Virus record (IMG/VR): IMGVR_UViG_3300046011_000969
Location: 1 to 38,219 of that record
From: a virus
Length of the DNA stretch: 38,219 nucleotides
Strand: one strand, 5' to 3'
Positions 1,565 to 38,106 of this stretch are shown piece after piece. The translations under genes were made by a program, and so were the position numbers. The notes under the pieces are model-generated. The model made no database searches. It saw only the letters and a list, made by a program, of their open reading frames with translations, and was not told where the DNA came from. The first letter of the stretch is position 1. Every line of letters begins with the position of its first letter.

Positions 1565-2467
1565 ATGGCACTAAGCGAAGCAGACTTGGCAGTACGCGAT
1601 CAGGCTATCTGGTCATCAGATGCAGGCATGATTGCAGAAGGTAAGGGCGGAGAGGTTTACCTTACCAAGATTGGGCAGCGGGAAAAGCCTGATCTATCAG
1701 ACGTAGAACCCGTACAGATGGGCTTGCTCATGCAAGAACCAATTATGCGGATAGCGGCAGGCAGATGGGGTTGGGAGTTCAAAGACGCAGACTATGCGCT
1801 CAGACACCCAAAGCACAATTGGCTTGCATCACACTTTGACTACATCTCATCCGATGGTAAGACCTTGTATGAGGTCAAGAACCTTGGCGTACACCAGCGC
1901 AAAAAATACGGTGACGATGGCACTGAGATGATCTCTGAGAAGTATCGCGCTCAGTGTATGCACGAGCAAATAGTGCATGAGGGCGTTGAGAACATTATCC
2001 TTGTGGTTCTGTTCGGTGGTCAGGAGTTATGCCACTTCCCGCAGAACTTCACACAATTAGAGGCAGAGGCTCACATCCGGGCTATGGCTGAGTTTTGGGC
2101 GCAGGTACAGACTAAAAACTGGAACCCACAGACGATGGCTGACGTTACAAAGGACATCTACAAGGTGGATGACGGTCAGGACATGGTAGCCAATGCTGCG
2201 CTCGAGTTAGCCTGCCAGCAACTAGGGCAGATTAAGGCCAAGATGAAGGAATACGAGGAAGCAGAGGAAGGGCTGAAGGAGATGATTCAAGCAGCCATGC
2301 TGTCTAAGGCTACCTTGAAAGCCTTTGATGGCTCGATCCTAGCCACTTGGAAAACCAGTAAGTCTACGAAGAAGTTCAGTGCTGATTTGTTGAAGAAAGC
2401 ATTGCCGGAGACTTATGAGAAATTCGTCGTAGAACAACCCGGCTCACGCCGATTCCTAGTTAAATGA
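1565..2467 (+). CDS. YqaJ/lambda-Exo family recombination exonuclease
   Basis: A 300-residue protein whose first 200 residues match the YqaJ/lambda exonuclease fold of the PD-(D/E)XK superfamily. Visible catalytic residues are Glu58 (MQEPI), Asp92 (HFDY), Glu103-x-Lys105 (YEVKN) and Gln130 (YRAQCMHEQ). It should digest one strand of duplex DNA to expose single strands for annealing. The C-terminal 100 residues hold a charged helical segment (about 220-250), probably a coiled coil. The annealing protein lies one gene downstream, the usual pairing. The leader AGGGGGCTGATATG supports the start. Confidence 0.87.
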   Translation: MALSEADLAVRDQAIWSSDAGMIAEGKGGEVYLTKIGQREKPDLSDVEPVQMGLLMQEPIMRIAAGRWGWEFKDADYALRHPKHNWLASHFDYISSDGKTLYEVKNLGVHQRKKYGDDGTEMISEKYRAQCMHEQIVHEGVENIILVVLFGGQELCHFPQNFTQLEAEAHIRAMAEFWAQVQTKNWNPQTMADVTKDIYKVDDGQDMVANAALELACQQLGQIKAKMKEYEEAEEGLKEMIQAAMLSKATLKAFDGSILATWKTSKSTKKFSADLLKKALPETYEKFVVEQPGSRRFLVK

Positions 2468-2478
2468 GGGGCTAAATT

Positions 2479-2784
2479 ATGCAAATAGATATGGCAATAA
2501 AAGAATATGAAGAGGGAGACAGATTTTTTACTTTCGAGATAGACAGAAGGCTTCAGTATGATTTTGAAGAGGAAGAAATAGCGAGGATTTGTTATTTATA
2601 TTTAAAAAACCAGATTGAACGGTTAGAAACATGGTTACATGAAGACGAAAAAAATGGAGCAACTGAGGATGCAGAAAGCACTGCGAAAGCCTTGAACGCG
2701 ACAATAACTGCAATTAACTTTATGACTGAATACGGAGTTTTAAATAAATTATTTGATAAACCATTAGGGGCTAAAGATGAGTAA
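2479..2784 (+). CDS. AT-rich acidic hypothetical protein between exonuclease and annealing protein
   Basis: A 101-residue acidic protein, mostly helical, with no recognised domain. It lies between the exonuclease and the annealing protein and overlaps the latter by 8 bases. Its codon use is clearly richer in A and T (many tta, aat, aaa, att) than its neighbours, resembling the broken GNAT gene at 4132, so recent acquisition is likely. The leader AGGGGCTAAATT precedes the ATG. A role in the recombination step is possible by position only. Confidence 0.65.
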   Translation: MQIDMAIKEYEEGDRFFTFEIDRRLQYDFEEEEIARICYLYLKNQIERLETWLHEDEKNGATEDAESTAKALNATITAINFMTEYGVLNKLFDKPLGAKDE

Positions 2785-3598
2785 CGTAATCAGTATGCCG
2801 AAGGGTGAAGCAGCAGTAATTGATCCAACCATTATTGAAAGTATTGTCACCAAAGGTGATTTGTCGGGGCTTAATCAGGTTCAGAAGGTGCAGTATTACA
2901 ACTATCGTTGCAAGCAGATTGGCCTAGACCCTAGCGCCAAACCGTTTGACCTGCTGAACCTATCAGGAAAGCAGGTGCTATATGCCAACGCGGGAGCCAC
3001 GCAACAACTCTGTAACCTCCACAAATTGTCAACTCAAATTACGAATAAGGAACGCGTGGATGATATTTACGTTGTCTCAGTCAGAGTTACCGGGGCTGAT
3101 GGACGCTCTAGCGAAAATCAAGGGGCTGTTAGCATCGGAAACCTCAAGGGAGATGCACTTGCTAACGCAGTGCTTAAATGCACTACCAAAGCAATACGCA
3201 GATCAGTGCTTGCTCATTGCGGACTTGGGATGCTCGATGAAACCGAAGTCGAAACAATCCCTAATGCCCATAAGGAAAATATCGTAATCCCGCAGGCAGA
3301 GCCAATCCCTACGGTTATCTCCGAGCCACAAGGTGATTGGGCTTTACTGCTACCCGGATCGGATGAGCCGTATTCCTACCATCAGAACGAGGATGACTAC
3401 TTAGCCGCCTTTGAGAAGATGGGCATCAAGATTCTCGATTCTAAGAAACTTGCAGCCGAAGAGAAGGTGCAGAAGATTAGCGACCTAATCTCTGCCAACG
3501 AAGCCACTCAGAGCCTTTTGAAGGGCGTACACGTAGAGATTGCAGACCGGATCACAGCGGGTTTACTCAAGGCAGCGAGTGACGCACTCCCAAAGTAA
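2777..3598 (+). CDS. Single-strand annealing protein, RecT/Redbeta-like
   Basis: A 273-residue protein likely to anneal complementary single-stranded DNA. Residues about 28-150 form the conserved part: QKVQYYNYRCKQIGLDP, then FDLLNLSGKQVLYANAGATQ, then a Lys/Arg-rich helix TKAIRRSVLAHCGLGMLDE that is characteristic of phage annealing proteins of the RecT/Redbeta superfamily. The C-terminal 110 residues are variable, as expected for a partner-binding tail. Its place just after a YqaJ exonuclease and before an SSB-tailed protein supports the call. Start chosen by the AGGGGCTAAAG leader before the ATG. The exact family (RecT, Erf, Rad52-like) cannot be fixed without profile search. Confidence 0.75.
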   Translation: MSNVISMPKGEAAVIDPTIIESIVTKGDLSGLNQVQKVQYYNYRCKQIGLDPSAKPFDLLNLSGKQVLYANAGATQQLCNLHKLSTQITNKERVDDIYVVSVRVTGADGRSSENQGAVSIGNLKGDALANAVLKCTTKAIRRSVLAHCGLGMLDETEVETIPNAHKENIVIPQAEPIPTVISEPQGDWALLLPGSDEPYSYHQNEDDYLAAFEKMGIKILDSKKLAAEEKVQKISDLISANEATQSLLKGVHVEIADRITAGLLKAASDALPK

Positions 3599-3609
3599 TC
3601 CAGCCAATC

Positions 3610-3837
3610 TTGGAGCAGGTAGCAAAGAACACAAAGCGAACACAGAACGGAGAGATTTTGAATTATTTAACTAAGGGTAATAGCCTGACTGCAATGAACG
3701 CTTTGAGTTTATTTGGCTGTGCAAGGTTGGCAGCAAGGATCGATGACCTGCGTAAGGCAGGGCATAACATAATCACGGAAGATGTAAAACAGAACGGGAA
3801 GACGTTTGCCCGTTATCATTTGGCGAAAGGAAAGTAA
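3610..3837 (+). CDS. Winged helix-turn-helix domain protein, TTG start
   Basis: A 75-residue protein consisting of one helix-turn-helix domain of the HTH_39 type: ILNYLTKGNSLTAMNALSLF, then GCARLAARIDDLRKAGHNI, then a wing. Such domains bind DNA and are common between recombination genes of phages. The only plausible start that keeps the first helix is TTG at 3610; no good ribosome binding site is visible, so expression may depend on coupling to the annealing gene that ends 11 bases before. It is the best candidate for an early transcription regulator here. Confidence 0.75.
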   Translation: MEQVAKNTKRTQNGEILNYLTKGNSLTAMNALSLFGCARLAARIDDLRKAGHNIITEDVKQNGKTFARYHLAKGK

Positions 3838-3838
3838 G

Positions 3839-4126
3839 ATGGCGTATCAACCACAAGAACGACAAGCAGGCACCGGAGTATTGTTCACCAATCACAAGAA
3901 AGGTGAGTCTGGATCAGGCCCGGATTGGAAGGGAGAATTGAAACTAGAACGTGACTACACTGCTGGTGAGGTAGTTAAGATAGCAGCGTGGACAAAGCAA
4001 TCTGCCAAGGGGCCATTGATTAGCCTCAAGGAAGATAACTGGAAGCCCGATCCCGGCTATAAGCAGAACGTGCAGCCAGTTCCGAGCAAGTCGATGGATG
4101 ACTTGGATGACGATGTGCCTTTTTAA
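3839..4126 (+). CDS. Small SSB-like protein ending in an SSB-type acidic tip
   Basis: A 95-residue protein that ends in MDDLDDDVPF, nearly the same as the C-terminal tip by which bacterial SSB recruits its partners (DDDIPF in E. coli). The first 65 residues contain alternating strands (GELKLERDYTAGEVVKIAAW) compatible with a short OB-like barrel and recall the DUF736 pattern; the middle is a flexible Pro/Asp linker. The frame extends upstream to 3806, but ATG 3839 has AAAGGAAAG just before it. It probably coats single-stranded DNA and recruits host SSB partners in the phage recombination pathway. The fold assignment is inference; the tip is seen directly. Confidence 0.65.
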   Translation: MAYQPQERQAGTGVLFTNHKKGESGSGPDWKGELKLERDYTAGEVVKIAAWTKQSAKGPLISLKEDNWKPDPGYKQNVQPVPSKSMDDLDDDVPF

Positions 4127-4690: not shown

Positions 4691-4840
4691 ATGAAGAAAA
4701 TTTTTATGGCGGTGATCGGTTTGACATTTGCGGGCGCAGTTTATGCTAGTTGCACAACCCACACGATTATGAGTGGTGGCAAGATGATGACTTGCACAAC
4801 CTGCTGCTACAACGGTAACTGCAACACGACCTGCTTCTAA
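4691..4840 (+). CDS. Small exported cysteine-rich protein
   Basis: A 49-residue protein with a clear Sec signal peptide (MKKIFMAVIGLTFAGAVYA) and a 30-residue mature part holding six Cys, including the TCTTCC cluster and a final CNTTCF. The ATG at 4691 is chosen over an upstream in-frame start at 4655 because AAAGGAGAG lies just before it and the signal peptide then starts the protein. It should reach the periplasm, where the cysteines could form disulphides or bind metal. Why a phage would export this is unclear; envelope modification or exclusion of other phages are possible roles. Confidence 0.75.
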   Translation: MKKIFMAVIGLTFAGAVYASCTTHTIMSGGKMMTCTTCCYNGNCNTTCF

Positions 4841-5202
4841 TGGGCAAGTTACAGCGTCAACGCGGAGCGCAGTACGAGAGAGATATAGTCAATGATTTGT
4901 ACATGATCCTTGGCTATAAGACCAGACGTAATCTTGTACAGTATCAAGAGGCTGGCGAGGGTGACATCATCCTTGAGCAGTTTGTGATCGAGTGCAAGCG
5001 CCGCCGCAAGATTGCTGTGTATGAGTTTATGAAGCAGGCAGAAGCGTCATGTAAAGAGGGGCAGACTCCCATCGTGGTGATGAGGGCAGACGGAGAGAAG
5101 TCGCTTGCATTGGTACGGTGGGAGGATATGTTGAAATTTTTGGGGAACGAATTACCCCCCGCACAGACCGAGGTGCAGCCTTCCGTAGAGGATGGCGATT
5201 AG
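4840..5202 (+). CDS. PD-(D/E)XK nuclease, Holliday-junction-resolvase-like
   Basis: A 120-residue protein with the compact PD-(D/E)XK core: Glu13 in the first helix (RGAQYERDIV), Asp42 (EGDIILEQF), Glu51-x-Lys53 (FVIECKRRR) and Gln66 (FMKQAE). Length and motif order match archaeal-type Hjc and phage resolvase-like nucleases. It would cut branched intermediates made by the exonuclease and annealing protein. The ATG overlaps the stop of the preceding gene by one base (TAATG). The last 20 residues are acidic and Pro-rich. Confidence 0.78.
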   Translation: MGKLQRQRGAQYERDIVNDLYMILGYKTRRNLVQYQEAGEGDIILEQFVIECKRRRKIAVYEFMKQAEASCKEGQTPIVVMRADGEKSLALVRWEDMLKFLGNELPPAQTEVQPSVEDGD

Positions 5203-15561: not shown

Positions 15562-16013
15562 TATTTGTCCCCTCTTGCTGGCCCCGTTTTAACGGTTACA
15601 TAGAAACTCCCGTTGCCAGTTTCTTGTACTTGGTATCCCATGCCTTCGATTGGGGGGTTTTCCGAAATGAACCGGAAAATGGTTAGCAGTGACGGATCAG
15701 TAAACTCTGTAGCCATCGTATCGAAGCCCATCTTGTAACAGGCTTTGATAAACTCCACGCTGTTCGCAAGGAAGTTTCTAGCAGTGTCGGCGTTTAGCGC
15801 ACGAAAGAACCCCACCCCACGGTCTGCCTTGTGGATAATGAATAGAGTATTTCCTTGCCGAATGAACAATGTGTTCGGCATTTGAAGTTCTGCGTTTATC
15901 ATAGCGATATAACGCGGAGTCTCCATCGGATCTGGAGAAGACCAGTTTACAATGTCGAGGATTTCATCGACACTTATCTCTTGTTGCTGGCTATCAACTA
16001 ATTGCGCCATCAT
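15561..16013 (-). CDS. Putative GNAT-fold acyltransferase-like protein in ACP cassette
   Basis: A 150-residue protein coupled by ATGA overlap to the ketosynthase. The order of elements (helix with YIAMINAELQ, strand-turn-strand NTLFIRQGNTLFIIHKADRG, then helix ARNFLANSVEFIKACYKMGF, then helix SLLTIFRFISENPP and strand GMGYQVQET) resembles a small GNAT-like fold, but the acyl-CoA pyrophosphate loop is not convincing. If it is an acyltransferase, it could move an acyl chain from the phage ACP to a protein. The family is not recognised, so this is a structural guess. Two start codons lie in tandem (ATGATG). Confidence 0.5.
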   Translation of the reverse strand: MMAQLVDSQQQEISVDEILDIVNWSSPDPMETPRYIAMINAELQMPNTLFIRQGNTLFIIHKADRGVGFFRALNADTARNFLANSVEFIKACYKMGFDTMATEFTDPSLLTIFRFISENPPIEGMGYQVQETGNGSFYVTVKTGPARGDK

Positions 16014-17110
16014 GCCCCCATAGGCTCAAACACGGCGGCAGAATAGATGTTGCCCATGCCAGCCGCCAAACTTAACACTAGCCCCTTGGGTGCCTCTACA
16101 GGCTTTGACAAGAAAACGTAGTCATCCTCTGTACGATTGGGTATTTCAGGCACAAACCCATTCCTCATATTTTCCAACAATAATAGGGTTTCTAGCAAGC
16201 CCGAAGCGCCCATAGTATGACCTATTTTTGCTTTGTAACTGGTAGCGACAAAGTGGGTGTTTAGGTCTTTCAGGGCGTTCCTTTCGGCCTCATTGTTGGA
16301 CTTAGTACCCGTTCCATGACTCTTTACCACGGTTATGGCCTCCGGGTCTAGCCCCTGATCGACACATCCATTGATCGCCCGGATGAATCCCTCACCGCTA
16401 GGGTTCTGGCCTATGGCATTGGTACTCTTTTCTGAGGCATTGGCGCTATGACGCAGTGCAGCAATTGTGTTTTCTTGGGGAGTAGCCTCAAAAATTGCCA
16501 AAGCAGCACCCTGTGCGACATGGAAACCATAGTTTTTGCTGTCAAAAGCGCTTGGTAGCACCCCTTTTTCTTCCTCTTCTGGGGTCAAAATGGCCTTTGC
16601 CTCCCCAAAAAACTCCAAAACAGAGTTAGAAACGGCATCTTCCACGCTTAAAACGACTACCCGATCAAACTTCTCATAAAGCATTAGGTTTCTTACGTCC
16701 GTCATCACCTTGAGGCTAGAAGCGCAGGCAGAAGCGTCTGTCTGGATCAGGTCATGCACGCCCATCATCTGAGCCAGCCTTCCAGCGTAGACCTGAGTAA
16801 GCGTAAACGGTAGAAACTTGTAAACGTAGGACAACTGGGTGTCTTTAATCTTGCGAGGATTGATCCCGGCAAAGTGTTGGTTGCCCCCTGCTAGGATGAA
16901 CGCCTGCTTAGACTTAGGGTTTTCCCTAATATGGGAAATTATTTGGGGGGTGAGGAGCATTTCGACTAGGCGGTGTGGCGCGTAGACGAGTCCGGTGTCT
17001 TTTTTGGCGTATGTAGCGGGGAAAAAATGTACCTTTTGGGGGAAAATTAGGTCTTCCATGAGCGTAGTTTGCTCAGTACAGACCGTATTCCAGTGATTAA
17101 GGTAGATCAT
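16010..17110 (-). CDS. Beta-ketoacyl-ACP synthase (FabF/FabB-like thiolase fold)
   Basis: A 366-residue condensing enzyme. The nucleophile Cys129 lies in TDASACASSLKVM, the first His265 in KSHGTGTKSNNEAE, and Lys293 and His298 in YKAKIGHTMGASG. The spacing Cys-His 136 and His-His 33 is close to that of FabF (140 and 37), so the Cys-His-His decarboxylating condensation site seems intact. The protein is about 45 residues shorter than FabF. The gene is joined to the ACP gene before it and to the 150-residue gene after it by ATGA overlaps. It should extend an acyl chain on the phage ACP by two carbons, or act as chain-length or initiation factor; substrate is unknown. Confidence 0.9.
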   Translation of the reverse strand: MIYLNHWNTVCTEQTTLMEDLIFPQKVHFFPATYAKKDTGLVYAPHRLVEMLLTPQIISHIRENPKSKQAFILAGGNQHFAGINPRKIKDTQLSYVYKFLPFTLTQVYAGRLAQMMGVHDLIQTDASACASSLKVMTDVRNLMLYEKFDRVVVLSVEDAVSNSVLEFFGEAKAILTPEEEEKGVLPSAFDSKNYGFHVAQGAALAIFEATPQENTIAALRHSANASEKSTNAIGQNPSGEGFIRAINGCVDQGLDPEAITVVKSHGTGTKSNNEAERNALKDLNTHFVATSYKAKIGHTMGASGLLETLLLLENMRNGFVPEIPNRTEDDYVFLSKPVEAPKGLVLSLAAGMGNIYSAAVFEPMGA

Positions 17111-17388
17111 TTGATCGACTCAATCGCCGCCTCTAGGCTTTCTGGCTCTTTAGTCTTGTGCTGGTCAATAAATGCCTTCAATTGGGTGCAATTTGTGACC
17201 TGCATGGTCTTGCCAACCTCTTCTGGCACCCCGTATAGGTCACACATATACAAACCCACCATGAGCATATCTAGGCTGTCAAAGCCTAGTTCGTTAAATG
17301 GTGAATCCCAATCCGGTTTTTCAAGTGAGTCTTGGTGCATAGGCTTGGCTATCTTGCCTACCTCATGCACCAGCGCTAGGAAATCCAT
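17107..17388 (-). CDS. Acyl carrier protein
   Basis: A 93-residue acidic helical protein with the phosphopantetheine attachment motif ELGFDSLDMLMVGL; Ser38 is the expected modified residue. Helix order and length fit a stand-alone ACP, with a C-terminal extension of about 15 residues. The host holo-ACP synthase would have to load it, since no such enzyme is seen here. The leader AAGGGGCTAAAT precedes the ATG. Its stop overlaps the ketosynthase start, giving a dedicated ACP-ketosynthase pair within the virion operon. Confidence 0.88.
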   Translation of the reverse strand: MDFLALVHEVGKIAKPMHQDSLEKPDWDSPFNELGFDSLDMLMVGLYMCDLYGVPEEVGKTMQVTNCTQLKAFIDQHKTKEPESLEAAIESIK

Positions 17389-35728: not shown

Positions 35729-36162
35729 ACGTCCTCCTTAAACGATATGTGCAAATACTACACGAAATATAGCGTGTAGGGAAAACCTGATTTTTCCTTG
35801 GGGCGGGGAGGGTTATGGGGCACTGAAAAACGCAATCCCAAACCCATTTGATCGCCACATTTGCACGGGCAAAAGAATCACGCGGGGAGAGGCATTAATT
35901 GCCATGACTGCGCAGGGGAAAGGCTAACAATAGCAAGGGTGTCATGCCCCATATTAGGAACCGCGACTAGAGCGCGGGTGGTCAATCCCCCCGCATATCG
36001 CTAGAACCCCCTTAGTACTCATATATGAATTATAGGATACACCTATTATAAGACATATATAAATTAAAAAATACAATGTATGACATATAGTAAAAGTAAA
36101 CGCTCTAGGCTACTAATCCGTTAACATATAGATTCTTAATCACTTAACGAAGGGGCTTCAAA
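35729..36162. promoter_or_regulatory. Divergent control region (434 bases, no gene)
   Basis: This gap separates the leftward block from the rightward cassette. It contains an operator-like inverted repeat at 35758-35779, a GC-rich middle with an imperfect hairpin GCGGG (35974-35978) with CCCGC (35990-35994), and a strongly AT-rich stretch at 36008-36150 with several TATA-like boxes and the inverted repeat ATAGG-ATACA-CCTAT (36032-36046). No convincing -35/-10 pair was found for either direction. Confidence 0.65.
35758..35779. promoter_or_regulatory. Operator-like inverted repeat CTACACG-N8-CGTGTAG
   Basis: A perfect 7-bp inverted repeat with 8-base spacer. On the minus strand the spacer holds TATATT, close to a -10 box, about 30 bases before the first leftward gene. 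The half-site CGTGTAG also starts the imperfect palindrome at 38090-38106 before the early genes, so the same protein may control both promoters. Confidence 0.55.
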
Positions 36163-36847: not shown

Positions 36848-37552
36848 ATGCAAAAATCAAAAGCGGCTCAGGCCGTAATTTTCGTTTTAAAGTCTAGCAA
36901 TTCTAAAACCGGGCCGATTCCCGTAACCTACTCAGGCCGCGACACTTGCCCGCCCTCATGCCCGCATTATCGGGCCTCATGCTATGCCGAGGGCTATTAC
37001 ACTTCGCTGGCTTGGAACCGGGTCGAGCGCGATGGGGTCGAATGGCGCGAATTGTGCGAAAAGGTCGCAGCGCTGCCCGATGGTACTTTATGGCGGCATA
37101 ATATCGCCGGTGATCTACCGGGAGAGGGTGAGCGAGTAGACTCTAAAGCGCTAGCGGCTCTCGTTTTATCTAATAAAGGCAAAAGGGGCTTCACTTACTC
37201 TCACAAGAAAAGCGCTCAGGCCGTGCGATCCATTCGGGAGGCTAACCGGGCAGGGTTTACGGTTAACCTATCCGCCGATAACGCCAGCGAGGCCGATACC
37301 CTTGCGAAGTTAAAAGCCGGGCCGGTTGTGGTTGTGGTTCCAATCGATACACCCGAAAAGACTTACACCCCCGAAGGCCGAAAAATTATCGTATGTCCGG
37401 CTCAAAGCCGCGAGGACGTAACGTGCAAAACGTGCGGGCTTTGCGCCCGTGCGGATAGGGACGCGATAATCGGCTTTCGGGCTCACGGTACCCGCGAGAA
37501 GTTAGCCGATAGCATTGCCCGCCGGGTGATTCCAATCGCGAGGGCTGCATGA
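36848..37552 (+). CDS. Cys-rich protein, GP88/DUF7227-like
   Basis: A 234-residue protein with two Cys clusters: TCPPSCPHYRASCYAEGYY near residues 36-54 and CPAQ...VTCKTCGLCARADR near residues 182-203. The middle part has repeated beta/alpha units (GFTYSHKKSAQAVRSIREAN, FTVNLSADNASEADTLAKLK) and PVVVVVPIDTPEKTY. From memory this resembles the mycobacteriophage gene product 88 family or DUF7227, of unknown function; the Cys set suggests zinc or an iron-sulphur cluster. GAAGGGGCTTATC leads to the ATG. The gene is GC-rich and could be imported. Confidence 0.65.
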   Translation: MQKSKAAQAVIFVLKSSNSKTGPIPVTYSGRDTCPPSCPHYRASCYAEGYYTSLAWNRVERDGVEWRELCEKVAALPDGTLWRHNIAGDLPGEGERVDSKALAALVLSNKGKRGFTYSHKKSAQAVRSIREANRAGFTVNLSADNASEADTLAKLKAGPVVVVVPIDTPEKTYTPEGRKIIVCPAQSREDVTCKTCGLCARADRDAIIGFRAHGTREKLADSIARRVIPIARAA

Positions 37553-37712: not shown

Positions 37713-37761
37713 AATCGGTTTTCACTTTCCAGCGCTTTTGCCCTCATTTTTCGTCAATCGC

Positions 37762-37828
37762 CACTAGAGGTCGCATTGACCATGCGCGTGTGTCCAATGC
37801 TCACTGGTAGTCGCATTAGCCATGCGCC
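37762..37828 (+). repeat. Pair of 27-bp imperfect direct repeats
   Basis: Copies at 37762-37788 and 37802-37828, 40 bases apart, share CACTxGxxGTCGCATT and CCATGCGC with few differences. Their spacing (close to four helical turns) and place next to DnaA boxes suggest iteron-like or regulator-binding sites. Confidence 0.6.
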
Positions 37829-37833
37829 CAAAG

Positions 37834-38009
37834 TTATCCACAACCCAATCCCAACCTATAGGCTATATGTTTTGTTATCAAAGGTAAGGGCGTAGATTCT
37901 ACGTCCATATATTTTAAATCTAAGTACCCATATTCTACGCCCGTAATAAGACGTATATAGGCTATATCCAGTTTAAGTTATCCACAAGTTATCCACAGGG
38001 TTATCCACA
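37834..38009. other. Origin-like region with four consensus DnaA boxes
   Basis: Four exact copies of the DnaA box TTATCCACA lie at 37834-37842, 37978-37986, 37989-37997 and 38001-38009, all in the same direction; the last three are in tandem at 11-12 base spacing, about one helical turn. Between the first and the tandem set is an AT-rich stretch (37904-37970) that contains the 12-bp direct repeat TATAGGCTATAT (37857-37868 and 37956-37967) and the palindrome CGTAGA-T-TCTACG (37891-37903). This is a typical layout for a DnaA-dependent origin. Confidence 0.75.
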
Positions 38010-38054
38010 GACCACTCCCATGCAAGGGAGGGGTATAAATAATTCATACCCCAC

Positions 38055-38106
38055 TTGACACCCACGTAAAACAGGTATACGGTTCATATCGTGTAGACGT
38101 TTACAC
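38055..38106 (+). promoter_or_regulatory. Early promoter with operator-like palindrome
   Basis: TTGACA (38055-38060) is a perfect -35 box; TATACG 15 bases later (38076-38081) is a modest -10 box. Just downstream, GTGTAGACGTTTACAC (38091-38106) is a 16-bp imperfect palindrome with 14 of 16 symmetric positions. It stands 25 bases before the first early gene (second copy at 38131) and probably drives the early operon through the circle junction. Confidence 0.6.

Follow-up and report, generated by a model that had tools for sequence, protein, structure and literature searches.

Most of the tailed phages studied so far bring their own initiator or helicase loader into a cell in which DnaA activity is tightly rationed. 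In bacterial oriC and oriC minichromosomes, high-affinity DnaA boxes stand in tandem, in phase with the helix, next to an unstable AT-rich stretch, and in many bacteria oriC has a box triple with spacers of 2 and 3 nt. Phage lambda, whose DNA is synthesized by the host Pol III, also has host DnaA boxes near an early promoter, together with its own initiator O and loader P, and plasmid oriV combines DnaA boxes with an AT-rich region in a small circular replicon, usually accompanied by a Rep gene and iterons. Phages lacking most replication genes and reliant on the host replisome have been acknowledged in general (PMC11348598), and among open-licence papers our literature search found no tailed phage shown to use DnaA as its sole initiator.

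The locus described here shares with oriC both the helical-phase boxes beside an unstable stretch and the spacing of the triple, but it is phage-borne, lacks an adjacent dnaA or dnaN (a beta-clamp-like gene lies nearby in two relatives) and shows at best a weak sign of a DnaA-trio. Unlike lambda, this phage has no initiator or loader of the O or P kind that we could find, and unlike plasmid oriV, the region has neither a Rep gene that could be found nor a convincing iteron array. Like the phages that depend on the host replisome, it shows no polymerase, helicase or primase; it differs from them in having a candidate cis element for host initiation, conserved across much of its family. A conserved oriC-like cis element in a phage family with no apparent replicase, probably a variant of the known DnaA-box origins, is what appears to be new here.

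The window is the whole stretch of DNA that was analysed, the 38,219 nucleotides of virus record IMGVR_UViG_3300046011_000969. Its two ends overlap, with 125 of 128 bases identical, and the record thus amounts to a closed genome of about 38.1 kb, with late structural genes running leftward and early genes rightward. The features of the region, with their strands where they have one, are as follows.

36848..37552, + strand: DUF7227 protein, directly upstream of the candidate origin region (Pfam DUF7227, 2.3e-79)
37755-37787 and 37795-37827, + strand: 33-nt direct repeat, 76% identity, 5' of box 1 and outside the conserved core
37834..37842, + strand: DnaA box 1, solitary, exact match to TTATCCACA
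37843..37977: AT-rich stretch of low stability, 64% A+T, candidate DNA unwinding element
37857..37868, + strand: repeat TATAGGCTATAT, copy 1, exact
37885..37945: imperfect inverted repeat within the AT-rich stretch, 30-nt arms GGGCGTAGA / TTCTACGCCC, centred at about 37915
37956..37967, + strand: repeat TATAGGCTATAT, copy 2, exact
37978..37986, + strand: DnaA box 2, array, exact match
37989..37997, + strand: DnaA box 3, array, 11 bp from box 2, exact match
38001..38009, + strand: DnaA box 4, array, 12 bp from box 3, exact match
38055..38083, + strand: candidate early promoter, TTGACA with a weak -10, perfect counterparts in relatives L090, L094 and L101
38131..38219, + strand: beginning of the first early gene, present in full at 42-227 across the terminal overlap

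The preliminary description, made from the letters of the window, had reported four exact boxes with three in helical phase, and this is what we found: all four exact TTATCCACA copies (starts 37834, 37978, 37989 and 38001) are on the + strand, and successive boxes of the array start 11 and 12 bp apart, about one helical turn. The cluster is far beyond chance. Markov simulations of the window gave an expectation of 0.305 exact boxes per genome and never placed two of them within 176 bp, while the analytic expectation for four boxes in 176 bp is 1.4e-10 clusters per genome. One more exact copy, the fifth, stands alone within a gene at 15830 on the - strand. The AT-rich stretch reported beside the boxes was equally confirmed, the 135-bp interval from box 1 to the array having 64% A+T versus 52% for the locus, and positions 37893-37992 being the third least stable 100 bp genome-wide. 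As expected for an oriC-type origin, a cluster of consensus boxes exceeding chance therefore adjoins an easily melted AT-rich stretch. Two further claims survived in part. Repeats do exist (TATAGGCTATAT twice, the 33-nt repeat and the inverted repeat, whose ACGCCCGTAATA is invariant in type A relatives), but they are not obviously iterons; the early promoter is only fair, with TTGACA at 38055, a poor -10 and no score in the consensus scan; several relatives (those named above) have a perfect TTGACA-16-TATAAT at the matching place. CTA triplets number 6 in the window against 3.1 expected (P 0.010), with an enrichment in only some of the relatives, so that a DnaA-trio element in the phage region is at best weakly indicated.

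The phage family is abundant, uncultured and of freshwater; it is also large, a terminase search returning at least 600 stretches, and the closest entries in the phage collection are two uncultured Manatee Spring genomes. For an unbiased estimate of conservation we used 39 non-redundant loci, the window included, chosen independently of the array, in which 3 kb or more of sequence precedes the exonuclease. An array or box pair lies upstream of the recombination genes in 25/39, a count that takes in the full layout or the array part of it, and is absent from 14/39. The conserved layout consists of a solitary box, an AT-rich stretch mostly of 131-207 bp and then boxes 11-12 bp apart; its orientation is constant, an array on the opposite strand never being seen, and where arrays have partly decayed the 11-12 bp register is preserved. 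The AT-rich stretch occurs in three versions that differ in sequence while the flanking boxes are unchanged. Types A, B and C of the region retain the solitary box, with an AT-rich stretch containing CTA some 5-15 nt further on, though an exact copy of this box was not seen in every relative. All 11 array-bearing genomes have this AT stretch among the bottom three of their 100-bp segments by stability; it ranks as least or second least stable in ten (G001-G010) and third in the window.

With array-selected loci included, relatives with as little as about 41% exonuclease identity still have the array, and array-bearing and array-less relatives are interleaved; the array has therefore evidently been lost or repeatedly gained within the family. 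On the exonuclease tree the array label needs five changes, at least three of them forced by well-supported branches, versus 12.6 when labels are shuffled. Different genes lie 3' of the array (the first early gene, another small gene or an HNH gene) and the array itself is retained, which speaks against an operator that serves a single gene only. On the upstream side, the slot of the DUF7227 gene is exchanged in relatives for ArdC-like or beta-clamp-like genes, and in array-less relatives the matching region holds DUF7227/GP88-type or ArdC-like genes.

That the phage has no visible replicase had been claimed at the outset and was upheld by profile searches with Pfam, PHROGs and NCBIfam as well as by targeted genome searches. 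Neither the window nor any of 16 related records yielded a polymerase, helicase, helicase loader, primase or Rep, and whole-genome searches of these same records gave zero matches for Pol A, an IstB/DnaC-type ATPase or Prim-Pol; DnaB had no match in 22 relatives. The early proteins of the window revealed no replication enzyme against Pfam, PHROGs and, for selected early genes, NCBIfam, and neither did the early ORFs of array-bearing and array-less relatives; the late proteins showed no replicase against Pfam and the first 25 of 54 families in PHROGs. A Rep or helicase hidden among early, late or relatives' proteins was accordingly rejected, although a cryptic small initiator or loader could still be present among the small proteins. 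The late operon does include, at 16010-17388, a beta-ketoacyl synthase (Pfam ketoacyl-synt) and an acyl-carrier-like gene, possible auxiliary metabolic genes. The only DNA-metabolism functions recognised in the window are those of recombination, encoded by or near the following early genes.

1565..2467, + strand: RecE/YqaJ-type exonuclease (phrog_434, 3.6e-38; Pfam YqaJ at cut-off)
2777..3598, + strand: Rad52-like single-strand annealing protein (Pfam Rad52_Rad22, 8e-4, just under cut-off)
3610..3837, + strand: small winged-helix protein, HTH_39 (Pfam HTH_39, 5.4e-14)
3806..4126, + strand: SSB-like protein (phrog_18154, 2.4e-5)
4840..5202, + strand: PDDEXK endonuclease, possible Holliday-junction resolvase (phrog_244, 5e-19; Pfam PDDEXK_15, 1.9e-7)

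As in a RecE/RecT-type module, the exonuclease and the annealing protein are in one operon, the match of the latter being weak in the window; RecT matches occur among the relatives' early proteins, and a sequence profile of the annealing protein retrieved no credible solved relative. The PHROGs match of the PDDEXK protein is a RusA-like resolvase family. In two relatives with the array, G003 and G006, a gene lying 1-2 kb away from it codes for a beta-clamp-like protein (TIGR00663, 7e-16 for the G006 copy); these genes, at G003:C1:35361-36005 and G006:C1:22155-22796, cover part of DnaN only.

Array-less relatives were approached in the same way. Six such records, read whole or nearly whole, contain no DnaA-box cluster anywhere, and a cluster that had moved elsewhere in these genomes was thus rejected; the early ORFs of five of the six show no replicase, and a replacement initiator, also not found among the early ORFs, was rejected as well. 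Because the array-less relatives that were checked also show no replicase, the array cannot be the sole solution of the family, which is thus able to replicate in another way.

As a control, the exact arrangement TTATCCACA-N2-TTATCCACA-N3-TTATCCACA was sought in bacterial genomes. Among the 121 proteins nearest to a bacterial triple, 33-34 are DnaA and about 30 DnaN, and at least 46 of 76 bacterial loci with the triple adjoin a DnaA, DnaN or YidC-type gene, the YidC assignment in this count resting on matching group sizes. Since it stands mostly beside such genes, the exact triple is a signature of chromosomal origins. Similar arrays are also present in phages with their own replication genes, and there are array-bearing contigs with DnaB or toprim domains. 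Escherichia phage P483 (KP090453; T7-like, Studiervirinae) has eight intergenic, same-strand boxes at L398:1410-1535, exact or with one mismatch to TTATCCACA, and the T5-like Proteus phage PM135 has a similar array in a shorter form; both phages presumably carry their own replication genes. The array alone is therefore no proof of initiation without a phage replicase, and it may act as a decoy or in transcription. In a second viral group (L165, L173, L185, L208, L216 and others) the exact triple lies beside terminase-like genes, with a PDDEXK gene on the other strand at a near-fixed distance; read from its sequence, a putative Prim-Pol/RepA-like protein is encoded there too. Microvirus genes were likewise observed among the array-bearing viral contigs, and the 4.8-kb single-stranded-DNA phage Gokushovirus WZ-2015a (KT264804) has, at L399:1269-1640, several DnaA boxes on one strand and, after them, CCCTACTACTACTACTATACTAAAAAAAATAAAATAAATT, a sequence resembling a textbook DnaA-trio plus AT-rich unwinding element.

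We consider it reasonably probable that the segment at 37.83-38.01 kb is a phage replication origin that imitates bacterial oriC, depends on host DnaA and is followed by recombination. The suggestion of a DnaA-box origin had already been made for this DNA, and conservation of the layout across relatives strengthens it. Reasoning from what is known of oriC and of RecE/RecT-type phages, we infer that host DnaA would bind the high-affinity boxes, namely the solitary box and the same-strand helical-phase array, and would open the AT-rich stretch between box 1 and the array, whereupon host helicase, primase and Pol III would be loaded onto the circularised genome. From the monomeric copies, the phage exonuclease, annealing protein, SSB and endonuclease may then build the concatemers that are packaged. 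The idea of a later switch to recombination-dependent synthesis, also proposed before, comes from gene content only. GC skew, recommended earlier as a check, proved uninformative: the cumulative skew follows gene strand, for which reason it was rejected as support for an origin, and at fourfold sites neither 38 kb nor its antipode marks a switch. An RNA-primed origin was rejected as the region had no Rfam match, as was a plasmid-derived one, blastn of the region giving no plasmid match.

Replication might instead begin at another place, with the DnaA array as an accessory:

36001..36101: lowest stability of any 100-bp segment of the genome, where leftward and rightward genes meet; rival origin or promoter region

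An unstable segment matching this one was seen in most relatives examined, some array-less ones included. If transcription or a small protein fired an origin at this AT-rich junction of divergent genes near 36.0 kb, that would agree with its being the least stable segment in the window, with the first or second rank of the matching segment in other array-bearing genomes and its first rank in several array-less ones, and with the need of array-less relatives to start replication somewhere. However, these are diverging transcription units whose promoters explain the A+T richness, there is no array of known initiator sites, and the kept DnaA layout would be left unexplained; we regard such an origin as unlikely.

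The array could also act on DnaA itself, as a datA-like decoy that soaks up the host protein or lowers its active form and so blocks initiation of the host chromosome. TTATCCACA is among the strongest box classes, plasmid-borne boxes titrate DnaA in E. coli (PMC5835720), and phages with their own replication machinery also have arrays, yet titration needs no fixed orientation, no intervening AT-rich stretch and no position at the early operon, and we regard this role as quite unlikely. Decidedly unlikely, in our judgement, is a third role, in which DnaA regulates transcription and sets the timing of the early promoter, as at lambda pR and pO, and replication takes another route. In most relatives a TTGACA promoter is indeed located some 25-90 nt downstream of the last box, and there is a precedent in lambda, where DnaA boxes near pO have been footprinted and DnaA stimulates origin transcription (PMC3985674). 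Nevertheless, the distance from box to promoter varies widely, in L084 and L099 a ribosome-binding site comes straight after the array without an intervening promoter, and the solitary box and AT stretch would have no explanation.

Returning to an origin fired by host DnaA, it is quite possible, though we advance this more tentatively than the reading of the locus itself, that a widespread family of tailed phages uses an oriC mimic with host DnaA as sole initiator, and that the phages themselves supply no initiator, loader, helicase, primase or polymerase, the single addition in some members being a beta-clamp-like protein of their own. If so, replication of these phages would be tied to the cell-cycle initiator of the host, or would escape its control, and it becomes testable whether phage replication escapes the limits that the host places on DnaA. 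Such a phage would be a natural minichromosome, showing how few parts phage replication needs, and could offer small, portable DnaA origins.
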